Of a stretch of 39,006 nt of DNA, positions 12,265-25,700 are shown in pieces. Source of the stretch: Clostridiales bacterium (lineage in GTDB: Bacteria > Bacillota > Clostridia > Oscillospirales > Butyricicoccaceae); NCBI GenBank assembly GCA_019418305.1, contig DYCA01000010.1, positions 11,191-50,196 on the forward strand, written 5' to 3'. A program made the position numbers and the translations under genes. Below the pieces are notes generated by a model. It saw nothing but the letters and a program-made list of their open reading frames with translations. It was not told where the DNA came from and did not search any database. How positions within the stretch are numbered: position 1 is the first letter of the stretch; every line of letters starts with the position of its first letter.

Positions 12265-12969
12265 TTACAGCAGCGTGCGGATATGGTCCGCCGCCTGCAT
12301 GAATGTATCCGCCTGATAGTATGCGCGCGTTTCCTGCGGCTGCGGCAGACCGGTCCAGTTGAGCCAGATTCCCGCCACACCGACATCCATTGCGCCTTGG
12401 ACATCATGCCGGAAGTTATCGCCCACCATCACGGCCTCGTGCGGCAGACAGCCGCATTTTTGCAGCGCCAGCCAGAAAATCGGCGCGCCCGGTTTATCCA
12501 TGCCTGCCTCTTCGCTCGAAACCAGATAGTCTACCCGGTCCGCAAGACCGAGATACTCCAGCTTTTCCATCTGGATATCCGCCATCATATCCGTGCAGAC
12601 GGCGGTCTTGACGCCGGCCTGCCGCAGATCGTCCAGCAGCTCGGTCACGCCCGGGCGCAGCTCCATTTTTTCCAGCACCGCATCCCAGTAAACCCGATGC
12701 GCCTTGCGCGCATAACGAATCGCATTGCAGCCCAGTCGCTCGAGCGCACCCTGCGCGAACAGCACGCGGTCGTGTATCGGCGGCATGCCGGGCTGCTGCC
12801 GCCCCAGACGGTGGCGGTTGACACGAAACGCCTGCGCAAAGTCCTCGCCGGAGAGCCCCAATTCCTGTTCCGCCCAGACGGCAAGCCGCTCATACGCATA
12901 GGCGTCACACACGCCGAAACTGCTGTACAGCGTATCGTCCAAATCAAAAAGTACCGCTTTCAGTCCCAT
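12265..12969 (-). CDS. HAD-superfamily hydrolase (YjjG-like)
   Basis: A 234-residue phosphatase-type protein with all HAD motifs: I, VLFDLDDTLYS with the nucleophile Asp; II, AVCTD; III, a Lys in GMDKPGAPIF; IV, MVGDNFRHDVQG. The ATG at 12969 has GAGGG a few nt upstream and places motif I at residue 7, as usual; an upstream frame would run into the preceding gene. It is similar in kind to nucleotidases such as YjjG, but the substrate cannot be read from sequence. Only 7 nt separate it from the upstream gene. Confidence 0.9.
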   Translation of the reverse strand: MGLKAVLFDLDDTLYSSFGVCDAYAYERLAVWAEQELGLSGEDFAQAFRVNRHRLGRQQPGMPPIHDRVLFAQGALERLGCNAIRYARKAHRVYWDAVLEKMELRPGVTELLDDLRQAGVKTAVCTDMMADIQMEKLEYLGLADRVDYLVSSEEAGMDKPGAPIFWLALQKCGCLPHEAVMVGDNFRHDVQGAMDVGVAGIWLNWTGLPQPQETRAYYQADTFMQAADHIRTLL

Positions 12970-12976
12970 AAATCCC

Positions 12977-13537
12977 TCACAACAGTTTTTCGTTATACAC
13001 CGCGCGGCTGCCGCCGACGAATTTGGCGCGACGGCGTGCGCAAAGCAGGATGGCCTCGCCAATGTGCTTGACCTCAATGCGCAGCGGCACGACAACCGGC
13101 TTGATGTGCATGCCAATCAGCGTTCCGCCGATGTCCATGCCCGCGTATGCGGACTGCTTGAGGCTTTCCACTGCGACCGGGTCGGCAAACCGCTTGTAAG
13201 CGGTGGTTCCGAACGAACCGCCCGCCTTGGGCTGCGGAATGACGTTGACCTCATCCAGCCCGAACCGTTCGCACGCGGCGCGCTCAACAATGAGCGCGCG
13301 GTTGAGGTGCTCGCAGCACTGCGCGGCAAGATAGACGTCGCGCTCATGCAGTACGCTATAAATGCCCTCAAACACCGCTTCGGCCACCTCTACGCTGGAA
13401 TGTGTGCCGATTTTTTCTCCGCACACCTCGCTCGATGAGCAGCCGACCACAAACAAATCGCCTGCGCGCAGCTTTGCTGCGTCGCACACCAAAGCTGCCG
13501 CCTTGGCGCTCTGTTCTCTGATTTCAGAAAGCTCCAT
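12977..13537 (-). CDS. UPF0340 / TIGR01440 family protein (YwlG-like)
   Basis: A 186-residue conserved protein of unknown function, common in Firmicutes. Recognisable segments are LRAGDLFVVGCSSSEVCGEKIGTHSS, AAQCCEHLNRALIVER, NVIPQPKAGGSFGTTAY and GMDIGGTLIGMHIKPVVVPLR. It is the first gene of a minus-strand operon with the HAD and TSCPD genes, with AAAGGAGG 6-7 nt before the start and its own promoter. The ywlG-like family has no established reaction, so no function is assigned. Confidence 0.92.
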   Translation of the reverse strand: MELSEIREQSAKAAALVCDAAKLRAGDLFVVGCSSSEVCGEKIGTHSSVEVAEAVFEGIYSVLHERDVYLAAQCCEHLNRALIVERAACERFGLDEVNVIPQPKAGGSFGTTAYKRFADPVAVESLKQSAYAGMDIGGTLIGMHIKPVVVPLRIEVKHIGEAILLCARRRAKFVGGSRAVYNEKLL

Positions 13538-13562
13538 ATTTTATGCCTCCTTTGATATTTAC

Positions 13563-13591
13563 AGTATACCACAGTTTATCCATGCTTTCAC
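13563..13591 (-). promoter_or_regulatory. candidate sigma-A promoter of the UPF0340-HAD-TSCPD operon
   Basis: Minus strand: GTGAAA (13591-13586), 17 bp, TATACT (13568-13563), about 25 bp before the gene. Confidence 0.6.
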
Positions 13592-13608
13592 CGTCTTTTT
13601 TCCTGCGG

Positions 13609-13637
13609 CATACATTGAGATTGAGGCAAGGCCTCAA
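13609..13637 (+). promoter_or_regulatory. sigma-E-type -10 element and leader hairpin of cotJ
   Basis: CATACATT (13609-13616) matches the sigma-E -10 consensus CATACANT, and cotJ operons are sigma-E-dependent in Bacillus subtilis. The expected -35 is weak (TTTCACCG region, 13586-13593). A 7-bp hairpin TTGAGGC-AAG-GCCTCAA (13621-13637) starts about where transcription would begin. Confidence 0.55.
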
Positions 13638-13663
13638 ACCGATAAACAAGGAGCAACCTGCAT

Positions 13664-13861
13664 ATGAATACGACCAATCCTTCGGGCGATCAGGCGCTGC
13701 CTGCGGACAGCATTGATCCCCGTCTGCTTTCGCTTGCCATGGCATTCGTGCCGGCGCAAAGCTTTGATACGCCGTATGAACCCGCGCTGGCCTTCAGTCG
13801 CGGTACGATTTTTCCGGCGCTCGATAAACCCTTCCTCGGAGAGGAGGCCGTTCCGCAATGA
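13664..13861 (+). CDS. cotJA: spore coat-associated protein CotJA
   Basis: A 65-residue protein with the family core LAMAFVPAQSFDTPYEPALAFSRGTIFPALDKPF. It is made in the mother cell and helps assemble the CotJ part of the inner coat. AAGGAG precedes the ATG at 13664. It overlaps cotJB by four nucleotides (ATGA), so the two are translationally coupled. Confidence 0.93.
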   Translation: MNTTNPSGDQALPADSIDPRLLSLAMAFVPAQSFDTPYEPALAFSRGTIFPALDKPFLGEEAVPQ

Positions 13862-14115
13862 CCGAACGCGAAAAACTGCTCAGTCGTGTGCGCATGTATG
13901 ATTTTGCGCTGGTGGATGTCATCCAATACCTTGACGGCCACCCGAAAAACGCTGCGGCATTGGCTTATTACAGCAAAATGCGCACTGCCTTTGATAAGGC
14001 CGCAGCCGAATACGAGGATGCTTTCGGCCCGTTGACCGCACGTGAAGTGGATACCCGTGTCGGCAACTGGCGCTGGATTGACGACCCGTGGCCGTGGGAA
14101 GGAGAGGATAACTAA
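13858..14115 (+). CDS. cotJB: spore coat protein CotJB
   Basis: An 85-residue protein with the usual CotJB pattern: a charged N-terminus with MYDFALVDVIQYLDGHPKN, then ALAYYSKMRTAFDKAAAEYE, and a Trp-rich end WRWIDDPWPWEGE. It is the middle gene of the cotJABC operon. The stop and the cotJC start share one base (TAATG). It is a spore coat component acting with CotJC. Confidence 0.94.
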   Translation: MTEREKLLSRVRMYDFALVDVIQYLDGHPKNAAALAYYSKMRTAFDKAAAEYEDAFGPLTAREVDTRVGNWRWIDDPWPWEGEDN

Positions 14116-14849
14116 TGTGGTCATACGATAAACGCTTACAATATCCCGTTAATATCAAAAATCCCGATCCGCAGACGGCAAAAATTGTCATTACACAACT
14201 TGGCGGACCGGATGGCGAGATCGGTGCGGCGATGCGCTATCTCAACCAGCGTTATGCCATGCCGTACAAAGAGGGCAAGGCAATTCTGACGGACATCGGC
14301 ACAGAGGAACTTGCGCATCAGGAAATGATTGCGGCCATCGTCTATCAGCTGACGCGCAACCTGACCCCCGAGCAGATCAAAGAGGGTGGATTTGACGCCT
14401 ACTTCGTCGATCATACGACCGGAATTTATCCGCAGTCCGCGGCGGGCATTCCGTTTTCGGCCTCTGCGCTGCAAAGCAAGGGCGACCCGATTACCGACCT
14501 GTTTGAGGATCTGGCGGCCGAGCAAAAGGCACGCACAACGTATGACAACCTGCTGCGTTTAATTGATAACCCGGATGTGCGAGAACCGCTCAAGTTCCTG
14601 CGCGCGAGAGAAATTGTACACTTCCAGCGCTTCGGCGATGCAAACCTTACAAAGTTGAGTGAAAGTTATCCCCTGCAAGCGGCAGCCAGCAGGGGAAATA
14701 TTTCTAATGAATTTTTATATCATAACTGCAAACCGCCAAAGCATTATGCCTTGGCGGTTTGCTATATGTTCCAGATGATTTGGACGCTGCCGTCCTCTCG
14801 AATCATGATTTTATGTATCATGATCATGGCCACCGCTTTTTTTCGTTGA
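14115..14849 (+). CDS. cotJC: CotJC Mn-catalase-like coat protein, interrupted (5' portion)
   Basis: Residues 1-175 are authentic CotJC, a ferritin-like manganese-catalase-family coat protein, with metal-ligand helices LTDIGTEELAHQEMIA, DLAAEQKARTTYDNL and LRAREIVHFQRFGD. At codon 176 the gene runs into an inserted element. The last 69 residues of the open frame (from NLTKLSESYP to ATAFFR) come from element DNA, partly antisense to the recombinase, and do not resemble the family. The true C-terminal 43 codons lie at 21842-21973, 7.2 kb away, in the same orientation and frame. As it stands the operon makes a hybrid 244-aa product. Precise excision would give a normal 218-aa CotJC. Confidence 0.93.
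   Translation: MWSYDKRLQYPVNIKNPDPQTAKIVITQLGGPDGEIGAAMRYLNQRYAMPYKEGKAILTDIGTEELAHQEMIAAIVYQLTRNLTPEQIKEGGFDAYFVDHTTGIYPQSAAGIPFSASALQSKGDPITDLFEDLAAEQKARTTYDNLLRLIDNPDVREPLKFLRAREIVHFQRFGDANLTKLSESYPLQAAASRGNISNEFLYHNCKPPKHYALAVCYMFQMIWTLPSSRIMILCIMIMATAFFR
14625..14645. other. attL: left junction of the cotJC element
   Basis: The direct repeat TTCGGCGATGC (14631-14641) is preceded by the left attB arm CAGCGC (14625-14630). To the left is cotJC and to the right, from 14642, is element DNA. The 11 bp recur at 21833-21843. The exact strand-exchange dinucleotide cannot be fixed from one sequence. Confidence 0.88.
14728..14762 (-). terminator. hairpin at the recombinase stop codon
   Basis: A perfect 12-bp stem GCAAACCGCCAA (14728-14739) and its complement (14751-14762), with a loop that can itself pair (GCAT/ATGC). 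It ends on the recombinase stop codon. No clear U-tract follows on the minus strand, so termination strength is uncertain. Confidence 0.6.
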
Positions 14850-16288
14850 TAGTCGGCAGCTCTCCAGGACTTTACCGGATGCACGATAGCATCATTTTCA
14901 TCCCTATGACTTTTGAGCCTCTCTATTCGCTCGTACAGGGTCAGCCGGTCCTGTTTGAGCTGGGTGGCTTTCCGATTGGCGATTGCCAGCAGTTCATTGT
15001 TGCATCCGCTGGTCAATATAGTATCCAAAAGCAGCTTCTCCGACTGTTCAATGGCTTTGATTTTCAGCTTCAGGTCATTTAACTCCGCACTGTTTACCTT
15101 GCGGGTATGGTGCCTTGTTTTTTTTCCATCCGCCAGTTTTGCGGCAATGCAGTCATCAATCATATGTTCCAAATCCTCCGCATAGATGGAAACCCTTGGT
15201 CCGGTGCAGATTTTCTTATGGGACTTACCGGTGCAGTTGAAGTAACGCCGTACCTCCCCCTTTTTATTGACCTTTCCTTTAATAGTAGTCATCGTGTGTC
15301 CGCATTTATCGCACACCACCTTCCCGGCCAGCCAGCTGGTGGGGCTGCTGTAACTGTTGGTAATCTGCCGGTTCTTTTCCAGCTTTCGCTGGCATTTGAG
15401 CCAAATATCAGAATCTACGATGCCGGGATGCGACAGAAGCACCAGCTTCATGTCCGACCAGTCAGGATTGGCAGAGTTGTGCTTGGTATGGCCGTAAAGC
15501 TGCGCCCCATATTCTCCGGTGAACAGGGAGACATCAGTAATTATCTGCGTTCCACGCCTGTCATAATAGTCATATATATCGGAATCTGCCTTGACATAGA
15601 TGGGATTTTTGAGCAGCGTGGAAAGCTTTGCCGTCGTCCAGCGGCTCCCGTTTAATGGCTGCTTGCCCTCCGCAACCAGAATATCGAGCAGCCTGCGTAG
15701 AGACACATTCCTTTGCGCATAGACGGAAAAGAGATACTGCACCTGCTCAACCTCAGAGGGGATAGGGTGGAGCTTTTTGGTTTTGACATTGTGAATAACG
15801 GCAGGAACCAGTTCAAATCCATAGGGCTGACGGCCGCCCATATAGAATCCCATCTCGCTGCGATGGGCATAGGCCTGGGTGACACGATTGATGATGGAAG
15901 TGCGCTCGAACTCCGCAAATACCATCAGAATCTTGACAATCAGATCGCCATAGGGTGAGGAGGTGTCAAACGATTCCTGCGAAGATACAAACTCAACCTG
16001 ATACGCTTTGAATTCTTGCAGGATGTTCATAAAGTCGGAGAGGGAACGGCTGATACGGTCCAGTTTGTAGACAATGACCTTGCTGACCTGGCCTTGCCGA
16101 ACCAGTTTCATCATCTGTTGAAACCCGTCACGATTCACGTTGCCGCCCGAAAAGCCATTGTCCACGAAGGTCATGACCTTTTCGCCTCGTTCCTCGGGCT
16201 TAATCATTGTTTTGCAATACTCGATCTGGGTTTCGCAGCTGATGCTGTTTTCCCGCTCTACCGACTTGCGGGCATACAAAACAAGCAC
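14762..16288 (-). CDS. large serine recombinase (SpoIVCA/TndX-like)
   Basis: A 508-residue site-specific recombinase that cuts and rejoins att sites through a serine. The N-terminal resolvase domain carries catalytic Ser9 in LVLYARKS and the arginine motif YKLDRISRSLSDF. The recombinase domain follows (GGRQPYGFELVP onward). A zinc ribbon has CDKCGHTM and later NCTGKSHKKIC, then a coiled coil (about LNDLKLKIKAIEQSEKLLLD) and the C-terminus. The length is close to SpoIVCA, which excises skin from Bacillus sigK. The GTG at 16288 was chosen for AAAGGAGG 8 nt upstream; the open frame extends further but without support. It lies 38 nt after a 50-aa gene in the same operon. Confidence 0.95.
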   Translation of the reverse strand: MLVLYARKSVERENSISCETQIEYCKTMIKPEERGEKVMTFVDNGFSGGNVNRDGFQQMMKLVRQGQVSKVIVYKLDRISRSLSDFMNILQEFKAYQVEFVSSQESFDTSSPYGDLIVKILMVFAEFERTSIINRVTQAYAHRSEMGFYMGGRQPYGFELVPAVIHNVKTKKLHPIPSEVEQVQYLFSVYAQRNVSLRRLLDILVAEGKQPLNGSRWTTAKLSTLLKNPIYVKADSDIYDYYDRRGTQIITDVSLFTGEYGAQLYGHTKHNSANPDWSDMKLVLLSHPGIVDSDIWLKCQRKLEKNRQITNSYSSPTSWLAGKVVCDKCGHTMTTIKGKVNKKGEVRRYFNCTGKSHKKICTGPRVSIYAEDLEHMIDDCIAAKLADGKKTRHHTRKVNSAELNDLKLKIKAIEQSEKLLLDTILTSGCNNELLAIANRKATQLKQDRLTLYERIERLKSHRDENDAIVHPVKSWRAADYQRKKAVAMIMIHKIMIREDGSVQIIWNI

Positions 16289-16326
16289 GTTTGATACCTC
16301 CTTTCCTCTGTGAGGTGGTGACACAG

Positions 16327-16479
16327 TTAGCCGGAGATTGTCCCGGCTTCTGTTAGGGCATGTATCAGCTCTTCCGCAATTCGTTCTTTGTAAGCACTGT
16401 CCTCTATTGGAAGTGTCACGTGTTCCACACGATGCCTGACCTTTTTGACATCGGTATACTCCTCCGGAAGTTTTGCCAT
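16327..16479 (-). CDS. 50-aa protein upstream of the recombinase; unrecognised
   Basis: A small charged protein, MAKLPEEYTDVKKVRHRVEH followed by VTLPIEDSAYKERIAEELIHALTEAG. The ATG at 16479 has GGAGG 7 nt upstream (16487-16491); a longer in-frame start at 16539 lacks a ribosome-binding site. The second half looks helical. I do not recognise the family. Its place directly before the recombinase in the same transcript makes it a candidate recombination directionality factor, DNA-binding cofactor or autoregulator, which is inference from position only. Confidence 0.75.
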   Translation of the reverse strand: MAKLPEEYTDVKKVRHRVEHVTLPIEDSAYKERIAEELIHALTEAGTISG

Positions 16480-16548
16480 GAACGCACCTCCAAGATCGCC
16501 CGGCATAAAGGCGTTGCGCTGCAATTCGGATAATTCCATCCGCTAATA

Positions 16549-16577
16549 AGAATATGCGAAAAATTACAGCATATTGC
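16549..16577 (-). promoter_or_regulatory. sigma-E-like promoter before the recombinase operon
   Basis: Read on the minus strand: GCAATATG (16577-16570), then CATATTCT (16556-16549) after 13-14 bp. This agrees with the ATA core of the sigma-E -35 and with CATAnnnT of the -10. Transcription would start about 60 nt before the 50-aa gene. It is AT-rich DNA, so chance resemblance is possible. No good sigma-A promoter was seen on this strand. Confidence 0.45.
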
Positions 16578-16688
16578 ATGGTTGGCAGATTCGGGATTTT
16601 CACACAGGCGCATATAACAAGCCAATGATCAATATGGATGGGAGGGTTGGAATAATGTGAAAATCGTCCAAAATTATGGAAAGAAACA

Positions 16689-16717
16689 TTGAAGTTTTTG
16701 GCATTGAGGACTATAAT
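16689..16717 (+). promoter_or_regulatory. sigma-A promoter of the giant SLH gene
   Basis: TTGAAG (16689-16694), 17 bp, TATAAT (16712-16717), about 125 bp before the gene. It lies in the 361-bp gene-free stretch 16480-16840, which also holds the recombinase promoter and two leader hairpins. Confidence 0.75.
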
Positions 16718-16756
16718 AAAAGCAAATAATACAAACAAACACTCACGCATGCGGTC

Positions 16757-16801
16757 AAAGGGAGCCGGCCCTTTTTGATGGGGATGAAATCCTCCATCAA
16801 A
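16757..16801 (+). promoter_or_regulatory. two leader hairpins before the giant SLH gene
   Basis: Hairpin 1 is AAAGGG-AGCCGG-CCCTTT (16757-16774) followed by TT, resembling a small terminator. Hairpin 2 is TTTGATGG (16774-16781) with CCATCAAA (16794-16801), with inner GGAT/ATCC pairing. They abut, sharing one base at 16774. Both lie in the untranslated leader, 40-85 nt before the start, and could form an attenuator or a stabilising structure. Confidence 0.5.
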
Positions 16802-16840
16802 CAACCGGACTGCCAGACAAACGTAAAGGAGGAAACCAGT

Positions 16841-19800
16841 ATGAGGAAAAAAGGTTTGGCCATGCTGCTGACGCTGGCTATGCTGTTGGGAATGCTGCCG
16901 ACCACAGCGCTGGCGGCGGGACCGGAAGATCCAATGGAGTCCCAACCGGGAGAGACGGCTGAAGTCGAAACCGTTACAGTCGATACATCGGACGCGGACC
17001 TGCCGGACAACGATGAGCTGTTTGCCGGGTATGTGCAGCAGCTGCTGTACCCGGAGTACGGCGTATCGCTGTTTAGCAACTACGGCGAAAGCAGCGGCGT
17101 GCTGAGCGCCGATCAAAAAGCGATCTATGACGGGCTGAAACAGAAGATCACGGAGGTTGCACAGCAGGGTGGATCGACGACATTCTACCCAACAATAGGA
17201 AGTAATGATACCAGCAATTTCTTTACCATCAGCTGGCAGACATCTACAACAGATACGACGCAACTGAAAAATGAATTACAGGATCAGTTTGGAACGATAC
17301 TGGACTGCTTAATGGTTGATTGTCCGTATGAGCTGTATTGGTATAATAAAACCGTTGGTGCAGGATACAGTTCAGTATCCCCTACGGCCAGTGATGGAAT
17401 TGCATCTGCGAAAATCGGAAATTTCCGTTTTACCGTAGCGACAGCGTATCAGGGCAGCAGTGAACTGGAAGTCAGCGCTTCTAAAGTTCAGGCTGCGAAA
17501 ACCGCAGCTGAAAATGCGCAGCAGATTGTCCAAAGCCATGCAGGAGAATCGGATTATGAAAAACTGTTGTCCTATAAGAAGGAAATCTGTAATTTAACAT
17601 CGTATAATCAATCGGCCAGCGGTTACGGCGACCCGTGGCAGCTGATCTATGTATTTGACGGTAATCCTGATACAAATGTCGTTTGCGAGGGCTATTCCAA
17701 GGCGTTCCAGTATCTTTGTGATTTGTCGCAATTTGATGATTCTAATACGGTTTGCTATACCGTGACGGGGGGCATACCGGAAGCCCATATGTGGAATATC
17801 GTCACACTGAATGGACAAAACTATTTGGTCGACGTGACCAACAGCGACGAAAATACCGTTGGCAAGGATGGCGGGCTGTTCCTGGCAGGCACAGAGGGCA
17901 GCGTTGATACAGGCTACAAATTTACCTTTGATGAACGCAATAGCATTACTTATACTTATGATCAAGATGCAAAGAACCTGTATGGTAATGCCATCCTCAC
18001 ATTGGCATCGGAAAATTATGAGGAATCTGGGGAGCCGCTCCAGCAAATTGCGGGCAAGGTAACCATCGAGGGTACGCCGAAGATCGGCGCAGAATTGACG
18101 GCAAACACCAGTGGTATTACTGCGCCTGCGTCTGATGGCTCTTTCACCTACCAGTGGTATCGTGACAGCGAGCCGATTTCCGAAGCAACCGGCGCAAGCT
18201 ACACCCCGGTATCGGCGGATGTCGGCAAGACCATCAAGGTCGAGGTCGCGGCAGACGGCTACTCCGGCACGCTGGAGGCCAGCACGGCTGGCGTTGTTGC
18301 CAAGGCTGACGGGCCGGAGGCGCCTGCCAAACCGACGGCGACCGCTACCGGTGACACCATTACGGTTGAAACGGTGTCCGGGCAGGAATATGCCTGCGTG
18401 GAGGGTACTGGTGCTGCTCCGAACGAAGATACGGCTTGGCAGACCTCCGGCACGTTTACGAACTTAAAACCGTCGACACAGTACAGTGTTTACACCCGCG
18501 TAAAAGAAACGGATTCTGTCAATGCGTCTGCGGTGTCCGAGGCGCTGGTAATCACCACCGAGGCCAAGGCGATTAGCGCGGTAAGCGTGGAAGTGACTGC
18601 ACCGGCCACCGGACAGGGCTTGACTGCCAATGCGACCGTAAAGGATCACACCAGCGATATCGTGGGTGAGGTAAAATGGTATAAAGGAACCGATGTTACG
18701 GGTGCGGCGGTCGCCGGCAATGCGGAAGCCGGTACGATTTACACCGCGCAGATCACCTTGACCCTGAACGGCGGCGCAGATCAGAGCTTTGCCGACTCCG
18801 TTGCGGTGACCGTAAATAACGAAGGTGCGGGCAATGTCTTGTCCAACGGCAAAACGTTGATCATCACCAAGACCTTCCCTGTGACGGCTGCGAAAGTGGT
18901 TGAGAGCATTGCCATCACGGCTCAGCCGACCAAGAAGGAATACGTCGAGGGGGACACGTTTGACACGACGGGCATGGTGGTCACCGCGACCTACGACGAT
19001 ATGAGCACTGCTGCGGTAACCGGCTACACCGTCCAGCCGCAGACCATGGCGGCCGATACGACAGAGGTCACCATCACCTTCGAGGGTAAAACGGCAAAGG
19101 TTACCGGTATTAAGGTGCTGAAAAAGCCCGCTGCCGGGGATTTCTCGATTACGCTGCCGCAGGATGCTGTTTATGACGGACAGCCCAAAACAGCAGTCGT
19201 ACAGGTGAATGCTTCGGTTGCGGGTATGGGAGACGTTACGGTATATTACGAAGGCACAAATGGCACGAGCTATGCCAAATCGACGACTGAGCCTCAGGAT
19301 GCAGGCGATTATACGGTGACCTTTGACGTAACAAAGGGTGATAACTATGCCGCGGCGACGGGTCTGTCCGCAGGCACGTTCCGCATTGCAAAGGCGGAAC
19401 AGGCTGCGCTGACCATCGACAGCACCGGCCCCGTTACCTACGGCAGTACGCTTCAGCTGACCACCTCCGGCGGCTCGGGCGACGGCGCGGTGACCTATAC
19501 CGTTAAGAACGATACCGGCAGCGCGACCATCAGCGGCGATGTGCTGACCCCCACCAAAGCGGGTACGGTCAAGGTCACTGCCACCAAGGCTGCAAGCGGC
19601 AACTATAATGCGGCGACCAGCGCGGAAGTCACCATCACCATTGACAAGGCTGATGCGACCACCGCAATGACGACCGTATCCAGTACAGTGGTAGCCGGGA
19701 GAACCGGTACACTCACCTTGCCCGCCCTGCCGGACGGCGCATCCTATGGAACGCCCACGACGCAAGATTCCGAAATCACCGCATTGAAGCTGGAGGGCGA

Positions 19801-21667
19801 TAAGCTGACCTATACCGGCGGCAGCGATGTAAAGGTCGGCTTAGGGTACGCGGTTACAATTGATGTTGCTGAAAGCACCAACTACAAGGCGTACACCATC
19901 GCCGTGAAGCTGGTCGGCAGCGAAAAGATTACCCCGACCCTGACGGCCAATGCGATTAGCGTCACCTACACCGGCAGCGAGGTGCCCGCATCGACGATTA
20001 CGGGCACGGCCACGGATGGCGATAAGACGGTATCCGGCACATGGAATTGGAGCACCGACAGGAATCCGCCGAAAAATGTGGCAGACAGCGGCCTGTATAA
20101 CGTAATCTTTACGCCTGACGATAAAGCGTATGTTTCCGGCACAACAACCGTTCAGGTGACCATTTCCAAAGCCACCCCGATCGGCGCGCCCAAATACACG
20201 GCGATTTCCGCCAGCGGCAAAACGCTGGCTGACGCCGGCCTGACCACGGAGGGCGGCACGTTCAACGTACCCGGCACGGTTGCATGGGAGCAGGCGGAGA
20301 CAACGGAAGTAACGCTTAACACCTATTATAAGTGGATATTCACGCCTGCCGATTTGGCAAACTACAATACTTTGTCAGGAACGATCAGGCTGTGGCGGCG
20401 TTCGTCGAGCAGCTCCAGCACAACCAACGAGAGCTCCGACTCGGTTTCGCAGCCTGAGACCAGCGGCGGCACGTCCACCGTTACCACAGACATAAATTCG
20501 TTTGTGTTCGGAACGACGGCCAGCACTACGGTGTCTGCCGCTACTATGGATACGGCGGTGGAGCGTGTGCTCAATGCTGCTGAAAAGAATGACACCGATC
20601 CGGTTGTTGTGCTCTCTGTGTATACACCCAGCCACGCGGACAGCGTAAAGGTTACGCTGCCGGTATCCTCGCTGCAAACGCTGGGTAAGAATGTGGACGC
20701 CGTGCTGACGATTACCTCGGGCGTGGCCGAGGTCACGCTGGACAGCGACGCTATCAGCGCCGTTGCTTCGCAGGCGCGCAGTACGGTAACGCTGAGCGTC
20801 GCACCTGTCGCAGCCAGTGAGCTGAACAGCCGCCAGAAAGAGGCTGTGGGCAGCGCGCCGGTGTTCGACCTGTCGTTCAAGAGCGGCAGCACCAGCATTT
20901 CTGATTTTGACGGCGGTCGTGTGTCGGTCACCTTGCCGTATACGCTCAAGTCCGGCCAGACCGCGGATGGTATTGTCGTTTGGTACATGGACAACAACGG
21001 CAATCTGACCGCCTGCGACACGACTTACAGCACCAGCCGCGGGGAAGTGACGTTTACCACTGCGCACTTCTCCAAGTATGTCATCGGCTATGAGGAGCCG
21101 GAGCAGGTCTGGATGAATCCCTACTTCGATGTATCCCGTGGCGCATGGTATTACGATGCCGTGCAATTTGCCACGGATAAGGGGCTGATGAACGGCACGA
21201 CGACCACGCTCTTCTCGCCGGACGAAACGACCACCCGCGCGATGATCGTTACGATTCTGCATCGCTTGGAGGGTAAACCGGTGGTGAACTACGCCATGCG
21301 GTTTGACGATGTGGCTGCGGGACAGTGGTATACCGAGGCCATCCGCTGGGCGGCAGCCGAGGGCATTGTTACCGGATATGGCGACGGCGCGTTCGGCCCG
21401 GATGACACAATCACCCGTGAGCAGATGGCTGCAATCCTGTATCGCTATACGCAGTACAAGGGATATTCGGTCAGCATGACCAGCAGCCTGAGCGGTTATA
21501 CAGACGCGAACCGTATCAGCAATTACGCCACCGCAGCATTCCGCTGGATCTGCGGTCGCGGTATCATGGAAGGCACGACGACGACCACACTCGGCCCGGC
21601 GGAGTCCGCCACCCGCGCGCAAGTCGCAACCATCCTGATGCGCTTCTGCAACGAATACAATCTGTAA
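16841..21667 (+). CDS. giant SLH-anchored transglutaminase-like, Ig-like surface protein
   Basis: A 1608-residue exported protein and the only cargo of the cotJC element. The ATG at 16841 has AAAGGAGG 8 nt upstream and starts a signal peptide (MRKKGLAMLLTLAMLLGMLP, cut near ALA). A transglutaminase/protease-like domain spans about 230-345 with a plausible triad Cys282 (VVCEGYSKAF), His316 (AHMWNIV) and Asp331 (YLVDVTNSD). Several Ig-like modules follow: about 400-490 (FTYQWYRD type), about 686-760 (bacterial Ig-like, TFDTTGMVVTATYDD) and further MBG-like modules. After a Ser/Thr linker (about 1180-1215) and another beta domain, three SLH repeats (about 1425-1608) end the protein. Likely a wall-anchored cross-linking or adhesion protein (inference). 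Confidence 0.92.
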   Translation: MRKKGLAMLLTLAMLLGMLPTTALAAGPEDPMESQPGETAEVETVTVDTSDADLPDNDELFAGYVQQLLYPEYGVSLFSNYGESSGVLSADQKAIYDGLKQKITEVAQQGGSTTFYPTIGSNDTSNFFTISWQTSTTDTTQLKNELQDQFGTILDCLMVDCPYELYWYNKTVGAGYSSVSPTASDGIASAKIGNFRFTVATAYQGSSELEVSASKVQAAKTAAENAQQIVQSHAGESDYEKLLSYKKEICNLTSYNQSASGYGDPWQLIYVFDGNPDTNVVCEGYSKAFQYLCDLSQFDDSNTVCYTVTGGIPEAHMWNIVTLNGQNYLVDVTNSDENTVGKDGGLFLAGTEGSVDTGYKFTFDERNSITYTYDQDAKNLYGNAILTLASENYEESGEPLQQIAGKVTIEGTPKIGAELTANTSGITAPASDGSFTYQWYRDSEPISEATGASYTPVSADVGKTIKVEVAADGYSGTLEASTAGVVAKADGPEAPAKPTATATGDTITVETVSGQEYACVEGTGAAPNEDTAWQTSGTFTNLKPSTQYSVYTRVKETDSVNASAVSEALVITTEAKAISAVSVEVTAPATGQGLTANATVKDHTSDIVGEVKWYKGTDVTGAAVAGNAEAGTIYTAQITLTLNGGADQSFADSVAVTVNNEGAGNVLSNGKTLIITKTFPVTAAKVVESIAITAQPTKKEYVEGDTFDTTGMVVTATYDDMSTAAVTGYTVQPQTMAADTTEVTITFEGKTAKVTGIKVLKKPAAGDFSITLPQDAVYDGQPKTAVVQVNASVAGMGDVTVYYEGTNGTSYAKSTTEPQDAGDYTVTFDVTKGDNYAAATGLSAGTFRIAKAEQAALTIDSTGPVTYGSTLQLTTSGGSGDGAVTYTVKNDTGSATISGDVLTPTKAGTVKVTATKAASGNYNAATSAEVTITIDKADATTAMTTVSSTVVAGRTGTLTLPALPDGASYGTPTTQDSEITALKLEGDKLTYTGGSDVKVGLGYAVTIDVAESTNYKAYTIAVKLVGSEKITPTLTANAISVTYTGSEVPASTITGTATDGDKTVSGTWNWSTDRNPPKNVADSGLYNVIFTPDDKAYVSGTTTVQVTISKATPIGAPKYTAISASGKTLADAGLTTEGGTFNVPGTVAWEQAETTEVTLNTYYKWIFTPADLANYNTLSGTIRLWRRSSSSSSTTNESSDSVSQPETSGGTSTVTTDINSFVFGTTASTTVSAATMDTAVERVLNAAEKNDTDPVVVLSVYTPSHADSVKVTLPVSSLQTLGKNVDAVLTITSGVAEVTLDSDAISAVASQARSTVTLSVAPVAASELNSRQKEAVGSAPVFDLSFKSGSTSISDFDGGRVSVTLPYTLKSGQTADGIVVWYMDNNGNLTACDTTYSTSRGEVTFTTAHFSKYVIGYEEPEQVWMNPYFDVSRGAWYYDAVQFATDKGLMNGTTTTLFSPDETTTRAMIVTILHRLEGKPVVNYAMRFDDVAAGQWYTEAIRWAAAEGIVTGYGDGAFGPDDTITREQMAAILYRYTQYKGYSVSMTSSLSGYTDANRISNYATAAFRWICGRGIMEGTTTTTLGPAESATRAQVATILMRFCNEYNL

Positions 21668-21682
21668 AAGCGAAAACACGAC

Positions 21683-21714
21683 AAAAACGCCCGGCTCGGC
21701 CGGGCGTTTTTGCG
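21683..21714 (+). terminator. intrinsic terminator of the giant SLH gene
   Basis: A 12-bp stem AAAAACGCCCGG (21683-21694) with its complement (21700-21711) around CTCGG, ending in a T-run. The 121 bp between it and the right junction contain no recognisable gene. Confidence 0.94.
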
Positions 21715-21828
21715 GTTGATACAGATGGCAAACTTGCAGCGTGCGCGGGTACCGGCCATAGCTGTGAATGACAGTAAGTCCCGCGAATCCCTGTTGTGCA
21801 AGGGGCTGAAGGTATTTACTTAAATTGA

Positions 21829-21847
21829 TCATTTCGGCGATGCGCTG
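21829..21847. other. attR: right junction of the cotJC element
   Basis: The second copy of TTCGGCGATGC (21833-21843) is followed directly by the right attB arm, GCGCTG (21842-21847, overlapping the repeat end), and by the rest of cotJC. The upstream side (TTGATCAT) is element DNA. Confidence 0.88.
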
Positions 21848-21973
21848 CGTGTGGTACAGGATCATCTGGACAGCAAAAACTACTATGCATTCAACCCCGC
21901 GGTGGATCTGCGCAAATCTGCGCGCAAAACCGCAGCGTCTGCGGAGACAGACACCGCCGCCACATCGGACTGA
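21839..21973 (+). pseudogene. cotJC: displaced 3' segment of cotJC
   Basis: Codons for D followed by ALRVVQDHLDSKNYYAFNP and then AVDLRKSARKT up to a TGA at 21971-21973. The YAFNP-type tail is the characteristic end of clostridial CotJC. It has no start codon or ribosome-binding site and is silent unless the element excises. The junction codon GAT-GCG follows in frame from the 5' part (GAT at 14637-14639). The last 20 or so residues are a low-complexity Ala/Thr/Lys extension. The reading frame is undamaged, which argues for recent insertion or for selection to keep it functional. Confidence 0.93.
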
Positions 21974-22035
21974 CGGCGGACAGCCGGTGCATCCGAACGC
22001 GGAAAATACGGTGTGAAGAATAAATAACTGCCGAT

Positions 22036-22069
22036 AAAAGGGTGCTGATGGAATCGTCAGCACTCTTTT
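22036..22069 (+). terminator. terminator of the cotJ operon
   Basis: AAAAGGGTGCTGA (22036-22048) pairs with TCAGCACTCTTTT (22057-22069), with one G-U pair. It follows the displaced cotJC end, so the original operon terminator is preserved on the far side of the element. Confidence 0.85.
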
Positions 22070-22142
22070 CGTCTTGAAAATAGAGGGGAGTTGGTGCAGG
22101 GGCGATTTGCTCAATGAATACGCTTTTTGTGCAGTATTCTGC

Positions 22143-22183
22143 TTGACATGCAGGCAGCGACAGACTATAATGAACAATGTTCA
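22143..22183 (+). promoter_or_regulatory. consensus promoter and operator of the tetR gene
   Basis: TTGACA (22143-22148), 17 bp, TATAAT (22166-22171), followed at once by TGAAC-AAT-GTTCA (22171-22183). The palindrome covers the start point. The same site recurs at 22795-22807. Confidence 0.88.
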
Positions 22184-22198
22184 TATTGGGGTGATGGA

Positions 22199-22756
22199 AT
22201 GAATACAGTCGTGACATTAAAGGAAGAAATTCTGAAAACAAGCCGGGAACTGATGCAGCAGCAGGGCTGGTCAGCGGTCAATATTCGCTCGGTTGCGGCG
22301 GCATGCGGTGTTTCGGTCGGGTCCATTTACAATTATTTTGCCTCCAAAACAGAGTTGGTGGGCGCTATTGTAGAAAGCGTTTGGTGCGAGATTTTCCATC
22401 GTCCGGAGGACGAGGCGGTATTTCAGGATATCCGGACATGCATCGCATGGATGTACGAGCGCATGGAATACGGCTGCAAGCAGTATCCCGGTTTTTTTGC
22501 GATGCATTCGCTGGGCTTTATGCAGGAGGATAAGCCGGATGGAAGACGGCGGATGCAGCAAACCTGGCAGCATATTTTAGATGGATTATGCGCGGTTTTA
22601 AAGCGGGATATCAACATTCGGCCTGATGCCTTCGATGAGCAGTTCACGGCTGAGAAGTTCGCGAATATCCTGTTTTCGCTGATGCTGTCTGCGTTGCAGA
22701 GGCAGGAGTATGACCCCTCGGTCGTTCTAGAAATTGTTCGCAGGACGCTTTATTGA
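22199..22756 (+). CDS. TetR/AcrR-family transcriptional regulator
   Basis: A 185-residue repressor. The N-terminal helix-turn-helix reads VNIRSVAAACGVSVGSIYNYFASKTELV, and the rest is a helical ligand-binding and dimerisation domain. The ATG at 22199 gives a normal N-terminus (MNTVVTLKEEILKTSRELMQ); the ribosome-binding site is weak. It probably represses itself and the two downstream membrane-protein genes, since both promoter regions share one operator. The inducer is unknown. Confidence 0.92.
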   Translation: MNTVVTLKEEILKTSRELMQQQGWSAVNIRSVAAACGVSVGSIYNYFASKTELVGAIVESVWCEIFHRPEDEAVFQDIRTCIAWMYERMEYGCKQYPGFFAMHSLGFMQEDKPDGRRRMQQTWQHILDGLCAVLKRDINIRPDAFDEQFTAEKFANILFSLMLSALQRQEYDPSVVLEIVRRTLY

Positions 22757-22794
22757 TGCATCCTGTACTGCGGTGGGAATTTTGTCTTGAAAAC

Positions 22795-22807
22795 TGAACG
22801 ATGTTCA
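22795..22807. promoter_or_regulatory. second TetR operator
   Basis: TGAAC-GAT-GTTCA, the same 5+5 palindrome as at the tetR promoter, 18 bp before the next gene. No strong promoter is obvious beside it; it could act as a roadblock or partner a weak promoter. Confidence 0.75.
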
Positions 22808-22825
22808 CGGGAAAGGAAGCAAGAT

Positions 22826-23278
22826 ATGAAAGTGAAGCGTAATACACTGCTGCTCATTGCCTGCCTGGTATGGTGCGCAGCGGGATTTAATATTTTCCGT
22901 ATCGGGGTTCTGGCCTATCCGGCCTATATCACGGTATGGAATCTGCTGTTGTCCGTGGTGGTTTTCGCGGTTTTCCAAAAGTTTATTTTCGGGAAACTGG
23001 TGCAGAAGCACACGGCGCGCATCACTGGCTATGCAGAGGAGCGGCAGTTTTTCCTCAAATTTTTTGACGGAAAAGCCTTCGGCATCATGGCGGTGATGAT
23101 GACCGGAGGTATCGGTCTGCGGGTGTCCGGCATCGCACCCGATCGGTTTATCGCAGTGTTTTATTCCGGATTGGGTGCTGCGCTGCTGCTGGCCGGCATT
23201 TGGTTTGGCTGCAACTATGGTAAAGCGGCCTTGGCCGCTGTCAGGGTGCAGGAACGAGCAGAAGGAAAGGATGTGTAA
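22826..23278 (+). CDS. small membrane protein, unrecognised
   Basis: A 150-residue protein with about four hydrophobic helices (LLLIACLVWCAAGFNIF, YITVWNLLLSVVVFAVF, AFGIMAVMMTGGIGLRV, GLGAALLLAGIWFGCNYG) and a basic loop between helices 2 and 3. The start has GAAAGGAA about 8 nt upstream. It lies 3 nt before the next membrane-protein gene and behind a TetR-type operator. A role in export or membrane stress is only a guess from context. Confidence 0.75.
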   Translation: MKVKRNTLLLIACLVWCAAGFNIFRIGVLAYPAYITVWNLLLSVVVFAVFQKFIFGKLVQKHTARITGYAEERQFFLKFFDGKAFGIMAVMMTGGIGLRVSGIAPDRFIAVFYSGLGAALLLAGIWFGCNYGKAALAAVRVQERAEGKDV

Positions 23279-23281
23279 CAC

Positions 23282-23947
23282 ATGCAGGCAATTATGGAAA
23301 CACTTTTTGATATTGTATATCTGTCTTTGGTCATTACCGTTGGAATTTTGATGATTCGGGGCAGTAAGGGCAACCGCCAGTTCCGCTTGTTCGGATGGAT
23401 GGCTGTCATATTGGGGAGCGGCGACGCCTTTCATCTGGTGCCGCGTGCGGTGGCGCTTTGCACGACAGGTCTGGAAAACTATACGGCTGCATTGGGGCTG
23501 GGGAAGTGTGTCACTTCCATTACCATGACGATTTTCTATGTGCTGCTGTATCGTGTCTGGCGGCAGCGGTATCAGGTCACCGGACGCGGCGGTTTAACGG
23601 CAGCGGTGTACGGTCTGGCCGGGCTGCGCATTGTTCTGTGTCTGATGCCGCAGAATCAGTGGTTAAGTGCGGATGCGCCGCTCTCGTGGGGGATTTACCG
23701 CAACATTCCGTTTGCGCTTTTGGGGCTGCTGGTGATCGTACTGTTCTATCAGGCGGCAAAAAAGCATCAGGATCGTGCCTTTCGTTGGATGTGGCTGACC
23801 ATCGTGCTGAGCTTTGCGTTCTATATTCCGGTGGTTTTGTGGGCCGATGCTGTGCCGGCGGTCGGGATGCTGATGATTCCCAAGACCTGCGCTTATGTAT
23901 GGGCCGTACTGATGGGTTATTTCGCCATGAAGCGGGAGTGCCGATAG
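23282..23947 (+). CDS. seven-helix membrane protein, unrecognised
   Basis: A 221-residue protein with about seven hydrophobic helices and short loops, starting with IVYLSLVITVGILMIRGSKG and ending in a basic MKRECR tail. It begins 3 nt after the previous stop, so the two are co-translated. I see no transporter or enzyme motif. It may form a complex with the 150-residue protein, as the two share an operon and regulator. Confidence 0.75.
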   Translation: MQAIMETLFDIVYLSLVITVGILMIRGSKGNRQFRLFGWMAVILGSGDAFHLVPRAVALCTTGLENYTAALGLGKCVTSITMTIFYVLLYRVWRQRYQVTGRGGLTAAVYGLAGLRIVLCLMPQNQWLSADAPLSWGIYRNIPFALLGLLVIVLFYQAAKKHQDRAFRWMWLTIVLSFAFYIPVVLWADAVPAVGMLMIPKTCAYVWAVLMGYFAMKRECR

Positions 23948-24037: not shown

Positions 24038-24766
24038 TCAGTTGAGAATCTTGAGAAACAGCTCCCGGTTGAACTGTTTGTGGAACTGCTCAATCTGATC
24101 GGCAATGCTTTCGCAGCATTGCTTGACTTCGGGATTGGCCGAACCGTTGGCGTTGCGCTCTTTAAAAACATGACCCCACTCGGTCAGGTCAATCTTAAAA
24201 ATGAAGTTGCTCGGAATGCTCAGCATATACAGCCCGCGCTTGACGTCCGGATTGTCGGCCATATCCTCTCGGATATATCCGTTGACCGCCTTGACGTATT
24301 TCACCCCGTCGTGCTCGATGGTCTGCGGTACCGCAAGTCCAAGCTCCTGCAGAGCAAGGTCGGTCGGCAGAATTTTGTCCTGATACCACGCCGACATTTC
24401 GTAAGAAAAGGAGGCAAGGCGGGTGCTCGAACGGATGATGCGGTTGTTAAAGCGCTTGGCATGTGCGTCCCAGTCATCCTGACCGGCGCGGTGCAGTCCC
24501 TCCACGGTGACAGACATGTCGATAAACCGCAGCATGGTGGTATGCTTCCAGCCCCATTTGGTGAGCTTGTCCATCCAGTCCGCGAATTCGGCAAATGCAT
24601 CCGCCTGAGCGCTGTCATATTCCCGCAAGCCGCCGTCCGCACGCAGTACCGTGCGGCAAACTTCCCGAATATGCAATTCCTTTTCGCGTGTCCATGATCG
24701 CTTGCTCATGAACATGGAAACGATTGCGTCGTCGATGCCCGAAATCTGATTCAAATACGTTTTCAT
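24038..24766 (-). CDS. conserved-looking protein of unknown function
   Basis: A 242-residue soluble, mostly helical protein rich in Trp and aromatic residues (MDKLTKWGWKHTTMLRFIDM, then NRIIRSSTRLASFSYEMSAWYQDKILPTDLAL, then MLSIPSNFIFKIDLTEWGHVFKERN). A GAGGGA lies 6-7 nt before the start. The spacing of Arg/Ser residues faintly recalls ThyX, but the RHRxxS motif is absent, so I do not assign it. It stands alone between sigK and the TetR operon. Confidence 0.65.
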   Translation of the reverse strand: MKTYLNQISGIDDAIVSMFMSKRSWTREKELHIREVCRTVLRADGGLREYDSAQADAFAEFADWMDKLTKWGWKHTTMLRFIDMSVTVEGLHRAGQDDWDAHAKRFNNRIIRSSTRLASFSYEMSAWYQDKILPTDLALQELGLAVPQTIEHDGVKYVKAVNGYIREDMADNPDVKRGLYMLSIPSNFIFKIDLTEWGHVFKERNANGSANPEVKQCCESIADQIEQFHKQFNRELFLKILN

Positions 24767-24923: not shown

Positions 24924-25622
24924 TTATGCATTTTCTTGGAGCGCGTCGCGCAGTTTTTCCAGCGCCCGTTTTTCAATGCGCGATACATACGACCGTGAAA
25001 TGCCGAAGCGTTTGGCAATCTCGCGCTGCGGCAGCGGTGCGGCCATGCCGAGTCCATACCGGAGTCGTATGATTTCTCTTTCGCGCGGGGAGAGCGATGC
25101 GGCGAGCGCGCGATGCATGGCAAGATAGCGGTCATGCTCTTCCACTGCGGCAAGGCCGTCGTCCTCACAGCAAATGATGTCCTGCAAGGCCAGCGCATTG
25201 CCGTCTCCGTCGGTTTCGAGCGTGTCGGATAGCGATAATTCTCCTGCATTTTTTCGCTTTTGCCGGAAGTGCATCAGCAACTCGTTTTGAATGCATTTGG
25301 AAGCATAGGTTGCCAGACGGATGCTCTTATCCGGGCGGAATGTGCTGACCGCTTTAATCAGTCCGATGGTGCCGATGGAAATCAGGTCATCCTGTTGGGC
25401 GCTGGAGGCGTAGTATTTCTTGACAATATGCGCCACCAGCCGCAGATTGTGCTCAATCAGTTGCTCGCGGGCTTTTTCGTCTCCTTCCTGCTGCATTTTT
25501 CGCAGCAGCTCTGCTTCTTTGTCCGGCGGCAGCGGCTTGGGGAACGACCCGTCCGCGCCCTGCACGCGCAGGACGAGAAAAAAGAATGCGCCGCCCAGCG
25601 CAAACAGGGCGGGAAACAGCAT
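24924..25622 (-). CDS. sigK: RNA polymerase sporulation sigma factor, sigma-K type
   Basis: A 232-residue late mother-cell sigma factor. It has a hydrophobic N-terminal pro-sequence (MLFPALFALGGAFFFLVLRV) followed by FPKPLPPDKEAEL, then region 2 (LIEHNLRLVAHIVKKYY, DLISIGTIGLIKAVSTF, LATYASKCIQNELLMHFRQ) and region 4 (LSPREREIIRLRYGLG, REIAKRFGISRSYVSRIEKR). These match sigma-K closely and keep the membrane-tethering pro-peptide removed by SpoIVFB. The ATG at 25622 has GTGAGGTG upstream. The gene is complete and not split by a skin element, in contrast to cotJC in this window. It should drive late coat genes. Confidence 0.93.
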   Translation of the reverse strand: MLFPALFALGGAFFFLVLRVQGADGSFPKPLPPDKEAELLRKMQQEGDEKAREQLIEHNLRLVAHIVKKYYASSAQQDDLISIGTIGLIKAVSTFRPDKSIRLATYASKCIQNELLMHFRQKRKNAGELSLSDTLETDGDGNALALQDIICCEDDGLAAVEEHDRYLAMHRALAASLSPREREIIRLRYGLGMAAPLPQREIAKRFGISRSYVSRIEKRALEKLRDALQENA

Positions 25623-25700
25623 GCAAACGCACCTCACTTTTTTCAGGATACCGTTACGTTATGCATGTCGATGGCTGTCCTATGACGCAGAAAATAGGGC

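Follow-up and report, generated by a model that had tools for sequence, protein, structure and literature searches.

Intervening elements have been described within several sporulation genes. In addition to skin, they include vfbin in spoVFB, vrin in spoVR and SPbeta in spsM (PMC4191935), yin in yabG (PMC10747680), and gin in gerE, a non-phage element with a 9-base-pair (bp) core (PMC5595907). According to the available portions of these papers, excision in the mother cell with retention of the element by the spore is established for SPbeta/spsM and skin (PMC5025042, PMC4191935), and the directionality factor of skin in C. difficile, a protein of 53 amino acids (PMC10747680), is controlled by sigma-E and SpoIIID (PMC5025042). 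Heterocyst interruption elements can number several per gene, with at most four (Rivularia nifD) in the accessible text of that source (PMC4874684). Here we describe a 39,006-nucleotide stretch of Clostridiales bacterium DNA (hereafter, the window; assembly GCA_019418305.1, contig DYCA01000010.1, positions 11,191 to 50,196), in which the spore-coat gene cotJC is split by a 7.2-kilobase (kb) element encoding a large serine recombinase. A first-pass annotation of the window had stated that it knew of no cotJC-interrupting element, and we likewise found no description of a split cotJC in the open-licence literature, although a subscription paper could exist; the nearest published case, as far as the accessible text goes, is C. 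difficile phi027, which lies beside, not inside, a cotJC-like gene. In the interpretation that we consider very probable, cotJC is interrupted by a site-specific element whose own serine recombinase would excise it and rejoin the gene, most likely in the mother cell, and the window represents one case of a five-site system.

As a whole split gene, cotJC occupies positions 14115-21973 of the plus strand, with its ATG at 14115. The 5' exon (14115..14642, codons 1-175/176; Pfam Mn_catalase, 3.6e-53) follows CotJC as far as codon 175, GAT at 14637-14639; the frame departs from CotJC at codon 175/176 and, if unexcised, continues to 14849 to encode 244 amino acids. An 11-bp core, TTCGGCGATGC, is present at this junction (left core, attL; 14631..14641) and again at 21833..21843 (right core, attR), both on the plus strand. 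The two copies are spaced 7,202 bp apart, which is the size of the element; direct reading thus bore out the junctions given by the first-pass annotation, and both cores coincide with the breakpoint relative to an empty site. Beyond the right core, the same frame reads ...FGD-ALRVVQDHLDSKNYYAFNP... to a stop at 21971-21973, yielding a 3' exon of 43 codons plus stop without a start of its own (21842..21973, plus strand; identified by codon conservation in 15 loci). A putative hairpin followed by a T-run (GTGCTGA...TCAGCAC-TCTTTT, about 22042-22069) was recognized by eye 3' of this exon. The gene was assigned to the CotJC family by its Mn_catalase domain, its cotJABC context, and residues E35, E65, H68, E136, and H169, the presumed ligands, whose positions we take from the numbering of the L. 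plantarum manganese (Mn) catalase.

The first-pass annotation had also noted that the two parts lie in the same frame and had suggested looking for an uninterrupted allele in relatives. Both points were settled by locus L058 (genome G039), in which cotJC is uninterrupted and encodes a protein 99% identical to the joined CotJC of the window. The L058 DNA aligns to window positions 12615-14642 and 21833-23477, and because these alignments overlap by 12 bp at the core with no DNA between them, the split is not a chance resemblance; removal of the element restores the cotJC frame exactly. The locus has three features of a sporulation gene-intervening element: a position inside cotJC of cotJABC, a recombinase near one end, and an 11-bp direct core that restores the frame.

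From the 5' exon onward, the element carries a recombinase gene on the minus strand, a small open reading frame (ORF) directly upstream of it, and a divergent cargo gene. The recombinase (14762..16291, minus strand; 509 amino acids) begins 120 bp from the 5' exon and has the composition of a large serine recombinase of ~500 residues, with Resolvase N-terminal, Recombinase, and zinc-ribbon (Zn_ribbon_recom) Pfam domains; it matches a phage-integrase PHROG (8e-89), and its best NCBIfam match, XisF, is far below the cut-off. Only this protein of the element matched phage families (the small ORF had no such match, and the cargo was compared with Pfam and NCBIfam only). The small conserved protein (16327..16479, minus strand, about 50 amino acids from the ATG at 16479; ORF open from 16539) is a candidate recombination directionality factor. 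In 42 of 57 loci, a homologue is encoded immediately upstream of the recombinase, and in 21 of 43 sequences, the window among them, the most upstream start corresponds to the window ATG; the 70-amino-acid ORF had no family match among Pfam and PHROG profiles. Upstream of both genes is a sigma-E-like box, AATATG-N13-CATATTCT (16549..16575, minus strand), the window sequence at this point being AATATGCTGTAATTTTTCGCATATTCT, which resembles what we take to be the sigma-E consensus. Of 43 upstream regions, 27 contain the pattern, as compared with 4% of mononucleotide shuffles.

CotJC is expressed in the mother cell. Because a sigma-E-like box precedes the recombinase operon, excision would most likely occur in that terminal cell, which uses CotJC. 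In the mechanism that we propose, sigma-E would switch on the small protein and the recombinase in the mother cell, and the recombinase, probably aided by the small protein, would recombine the two 11-bp cores (attL x attR), removing 7.2 kb and rejoining cotJC in frame. The gene would thus be rebuilt in the mother-cell chromosome, which is not inherited, while the forespore and spore would keep the element.

The window recombinase retrieved 52 loci from the genome collection and five from viral contigs; the record names include Oscillospiraceae, Lachnospiraceae, Oscillibacter, and Ruminiclostridium. In 34 loci, counting the window, a cotJC exon breaks off at residue 174-176; in most of the others, the stretch was too short or the exon lay outside it. 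All 34 exons are open up to the junction, and in all 34 the CotJC sequence is left right after RFG(D/E) and replaced by element sequence, e.g., ANHTDLSRF. The right attachment-site (attP) half-arm, TTTACTTAAATTGATCAT (21815..21832, plus strand, in the window), was recognized as a pattern in 11 stretches (L024 and L107 being the same genome) and is followed, after the core, by CotJC codons in 10 of them. In the remaining case, on the minus strand of L035 at about 9680, the site-176 right arm and core precede codons that do not read as CotJC, possibly reflecting another target or a diverged end. No free attP of the site-176 family was found among these loci, since left-arm matches follow cotJC codons in 13 of 13 cases and right-arm matches precede them in 10 of 11.

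We also considered whether an intact cotJC elsewhere might render the split copy dispensable, a situation that the first-pass annotation had named as one that would speak against its proposal if the split copy were decayed in relatives. When the first 30 recombinase genomes were searched whole, CotJC was matched in every one, for the most part as fragments or as the 5' part alone, and a full-length second copy was present in G007 and G011. Among 21 further genomes, 17 had a match, including a full-length copy beside pieces in G368, and five had no CotJC or a distant paralogue only (G382, the paralogue only). On the strength of the genomes searched, a backup gene as the general case was rejected; the situation envisaged was for the most part not encountered, with G017 and G374 remaining uncertain.

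Site 176 is one of several. Breaks in cotJC fall at five conserved sites, because 'site 63' resolves on junction reading into two sites (63A and 63B) a few codons apart. The five cores fall on the codons for GGP (beside E35), for GTE and ELA (E65 and H68), for AAE (E136), and for RFG (after H169), and the arms around each core, inspected by eye, are inverted repeats that differ from site to site. In sequence comparison, these five residues fall on positions that are conserved in solved Mn catalases from the PDB, and by analogy with the L. plantarum enzyme we take them to be metal ligands. Conserved active-site codons may offer a natural target for an integrase that needs a stable DNA site. The element proposed by the first-pass annotation is real, but it accounts for only one of the five sites of a gene that can carry up to five elements. 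We suggest that cotJC in gut Clostridia would serve as a dock with five attachment sites, placed at codons around the presumed Mn ligands and used by distinct recombinase clades that would travel on cassettes, islands, or prophages, up to five elements per gene.

The fullest case is G053, in which cotJC is in six pieces separated by five elements, all on one strand of one contig and spanning 83 kb. Joined at the cores, these pieces encode a complete CotJC that shares 179 identical residues (89%) with an intact relative, including the motif GTEELAH; joining exon 2 straight to exon 3 instead produces GANELAH or GTELAH. In both G053 and G080, elements occupy the two site-63 sub-sites, leaving between them a micro-exon of 9-13 bp, GGTACAGAA(GAAC) or GGTACCGAAGAAC... 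The G053 elements differ in cargo: an iron-hydrogenase at site 33, Cas3-like and Csd1 proteins at 63A, a prophage at 63B, an aminotransferase at 137, and a GGDEF-HD protein at 176. The CRISPR-Cas genes (Cas3-like, Csd1) within the cotJC-interrupting 63A element lie at L108 10334-15306.

Of the 40 gaps that separate neighboring exons on the same stretch (counted without L024, which duplicates G013), 39 contain a recombinase of at least 430 amino acids, in 36 cases within 1 kb of a junction; the fortieth gap (G080, site 176) holds only a 239-amino-acid serine-recombinase ORF, at the 3' exon. In a tree of 99 recombinases, the site labels require four changes, the minimum possible, as compared with a mean of 37.4 when shuffled. 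Sites 33, 137, and 176 each correspond to one clade, the last including the window recombinase, and site 63 to two, which in G035, G053, and G080 correspond to the two sub-sites. Since 38 of the 59 site-176 labels were family defaults, and exon positions were used to assign nine labels manually, the result is less clean for site 176 than for the remaining sites. The inserts range from cassettes of about 4 kb (G013) through islands to prophages, the largest, at site 137 of G031, exceeding 50 kb. The single 4.0-Mb contig of G035 has prophages at sites 33 and 63B, with terminase, portal, and either head protein or tail fibre genes, and residues 1-32, 28-64, and 68-201 of the intact allele (L065) of its relative G034 are each found once in the translated G035 stretch. 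Relatives of the site-33 recombinase were present on 31 viral contigs, six of which run straight into a cotJC exon. Among the 25 inspected by eye, many others carry a palindromic attP in one uninterrupted stretch, its core resembling TTTGGCGGTC or the complementary sequence; those with an unbroken attP-like palindrome right after the recombinase gene are L131, L134-L139, L142-L144, L146, L148, and L156, an arrangement that would be expected of unintegrated phages. With the intact alleles, the split junctions, and the viral attP, therefore, attB, attL/attR, and attP are all seen in nature for site 33. No relatives of the site-63B recombinase were found in viral contigs.

We surveyed three families for intact and split alleles. 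In that of G006 (the Agathobaculum record L006), the closest named relative, whose CotJC is 96% identical to that of the window over residues 61-176, 76 of 87 genomes matched: 33 have a full-length cotJC, 40 have pieces only, and three have only a paralogue or weak match. For ten of the 40 pieces-only genomes the evidence is one fragment, and contig ends may therefore have raised the count of 40. Breaks near codons 33, 63, 137, and 176 were tallied in 11, 16, 20, and 16 genomes, respectively, among which the calls for G045 at 33 and G035 at 176 were discounted as stray fragments. As a control, a distant Mn-catalase paralogue (32-36% identity) was full-length in all 14 rows from this family. 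In the G005 family (a Pseudoflavonifractor record), 194 of 250 genomes matched, 115 with and 79 without a full-length row, the latter being counted together for all sites and including some with the paralogue only. In the G010 family (an Acetatifactor record), 75 of 120 matched; judged by eye, 49 have at least one full-length copy and 26 have none, four of which look like contig ends or a frameshift. Many of the split loci come from metagenome bins, and some are single fragments at contig ends, as would be the case if the splits were assembly artefacts or the gene a plain pseudogene. We regard that explanation as almost certainly wrong. Split cotJC also occurs on single contigs of 3.2 and 4.0 Mb and, according to record titles, in isolate drafts; the breaks recur at few sites and join in frame. 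An assembly artefact was rejected on these grounds, and a pseudogene because the exons are open, with conserved codons, under purifying selection, and free of decay.

All 40 gaps allow an in-frame, ungapped join that is free of stops and in which 13-18 of 18 residues match an intact relative. Because each join was picked as the best of many candidates with two or more bases in common, this result indicates that a correct join exists, not that the cell uses it. Selection on the split genes was examined at the level of families. The rate of nonsynonymous change (dN) was below that of synonymous change (dS) in all 20 pairs that returned a value, from 25 requested (for example, dN 0.045 and dS 1.65 for L037/L038; dN 0.041 and dS 1.18 for L012/L013). 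Over 15 loci (in which L024 and G013 are the same genome and L002 was skipped), differences within 3' exons at codon positions 1, 2, and 3 were 0.26, 0.23, and 0.54, as compared with 0.71 at each position in the element DNA just upstream. Split cotJC exons are under strong purifying selection.

These data bear on the possibility that the elements are parasites of the attachment site, with cotJC a safe landing site, CotJC lost to the host, and excision occurring only when the element moves on. The rapid turnover between intact and split alleles in the G006 family would suit such a scenario, as would the prophages among the inserts and the free phage attP sites for site 33; the loss of cotJC may even be mild, to judge from what the available text reports of C. 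difficile cotCB/cotD mutants. Never-excised insertions, however, would not predict open, in-frame exons under purifying selection, nor the conservation of 3' exons that have no start. Further, L001 and L002, both split at 63 and 176, differ by 44 synonymous changes and one nonsynonymous change in 176 codons; their site-63 element is orthologous, aligning throughout (the site-176 element aligns over the recombinase part). We therefore consider parasitism of this kind quite unlikely.

Excision and rejoining by a skin-like serine-recombinase element in a mother-cell coat gene, the compact switch that the first-pass annotation had envisaged, is thus the best-supported interpretation. Behind it stand the anatomy of the locus, the empty site, and the purifying selection on split genes, together with the five sites, the clade-to-site match, and the in-frame joins. 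Several points weigh against it, in addition to the selection of joins from among candidates. (i) The element in the window may be young, since the nearest relative is intact, and selection before insertion could explain the state of the window copy. (ii) The small protein is a candidate directionality factor by position. (iii) In several loci, the sigma-E-like box overlaps the 3' end of an older ORF; by eye, the sequence beyond the box differs among the window, L006, L013, and L045, which argues that the box, rather than the older ORF, is kept. (iv) Decayed or partial extra cotJC copies, with stops or missing parts, occur at G011:C68, G368:C119, and G035:C1:1028284-1028546; those in G011 and G368 accompany a full-length copy. 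(v) A similar box lies directly upstream of only three of 39 recombinases of the other sites, where control may reside on a separate factor, as in C. difficile. (vi) Without excision, residues 1-175 still include the five presumed Mn ligands, and this part might have some activity.

The scarcity of the box at other sites would also be compatible with excision outside development, as a stochastic or stress-induced phase switch or as active lysogeny that leaves cotJC on in a fraction of cells, and the accessible text on yin in yabG reports that some of the cells had the element excised at every time point (PMC10747680). We nevertheless think this unlikely, given the conserved sigma-E-like box at the site-176 operon and because five independent stochastic excisions in the cotJC of G053 would rarely coincide without a common trigger. 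The retention of the ligands, in turn, raises the idea that the 5' part is itself a working gene, to which the element supplies an alternative C-terminal tail to form a variant catalase; the similarity of CotJC to solved Mn catalases ends at residue 177-178. This proposal is highly improbable: tails after site 176 vary in both length and sequence between loci (open frames of 185 to 270 amino acids), splits at the other four sites remove ligands, and the 3' exons are conserved.

The cargo gene of the window element (16817..21667, plus strand) encodes 1,616 amino acids with Ig-like and three SLH domains (Pfam SLH, Big_3) and a transglutaminase-related stretch, the NCBIfam match of which is below the cut-off. 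A homologue 74% identical to its last 405 amino acids is located at L006 13997-15235, inside a different element (site 63), and the cargo therefore seems to move between element families. Preceding cotJC on the plus strand are cotJA (13664..13861; Pfam CotJA, 2.5e-15) and cotJB (13858..14115; Pfam CotJB, 1.6e-25), and upstream of these is a promoter-like site of the operon (TTTCACC...GGCATACATT; 13586..13616, plus strand), recognized by its -10 pattern and presumably of the sigma-K/sigma-E type. A CATAnnnT -10 lies upstream of cotJA in 44 of 51 loci, as compared with 15% in shuffles; the complete sigma-E -35/-10 pattern fits in two of the 51 only. About 3 kb downstream of cotJC is an uninterrupted sigK-like sporulation sigma factor gene (24924..25637, minus strand), which scored above the cut-off of NCBIfam PRK05803 (SigK subfamily; 1.2e-77) and under that of the SigK equivalog model. 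Between the two, the ORF at 24038-24766 showed only a weak match, to FAD-dependent thymidylate synthase. The SigK model matched in 87 of 87 G006-family genomes, none above the strict cut-off, and in 11 of 14 control genomes, non-sporulating ones included, so that only high scores (~230-295 bits, obtained for most genomes) are meaningful. In G114, G116, G081, G065, G082, G066, G088, G090, and G100, SigK-like matches stop near codon 112-120, and in G114 the remaining half of sigK is on another contig; these are probably skin-type interruptions of sigK.

We think it probable that cotJC is built from up to six pieces, including a micro-exon with a catalytic glutamate, by up to five different serine recombinases in one terminal cell, and that its active-site codons, which supply all five docking sequences, have become a common target of unrelated phages, small cassettes, and a CRISPR-carrying island because excision in the mother cell costs the element nothing. 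If so, sporulation-linked rearrangement would no longer be confined to isolated cases in bacilli and clostridial pathogens but would be a seemingly widespread feature of gut Clostridia, both cultured and uncultured, with multiple elements involved, and cotJC would constitute a natural experiment in which unrelated mobile elements settle in terminal-cell genes without killing the host trait. The gene also provides a collection of distinct serine integrases, their attachment sites already mapped within one short sequence, and a warning for annotation, in that a cotJC labelled absent or pseudogene in such genomes may be working.

The kind of element is already known; relative to the literature that we found, the novelty lies in the gene concerned, in how many elements it can hold, in the micro-exon, and in the match of recombinase clade to site. 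As with skin in sigK of B. subtilis and C. difficile, a large serine recombinase lies inside a mother-cell sporulation gene and a short core allows in-frame rejoining; the small protein of the window is close in size to the C. difficile directionality factor. Unlike skin, as presented in the accessible text on it, which is one element in sigK, the system described here concerns cotJC and comprises five sites with distinct recombinase lineages. The elements gin, vfbin, vrin, yin, and SPbeta are likewise found in sporulation genes, but in the available portions of their sources none is in cotJC and none is described as several per gene. Compared with ordinary CotJC coat proteins, those studied here share the Mn_catalase Pfam domain and the cotJABC gene order but are interrupted. 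The heterocyst elements of cyanobacteria (nifD, fdxN, hupL) provide a further parallel, in that a gene is rebuilt by recombinases in a specialised cell; the split cotJC differs from them in phylum, cell type, and gene, and in its five elements, its micro-exon, and the correspondence between recombinase clade and site.

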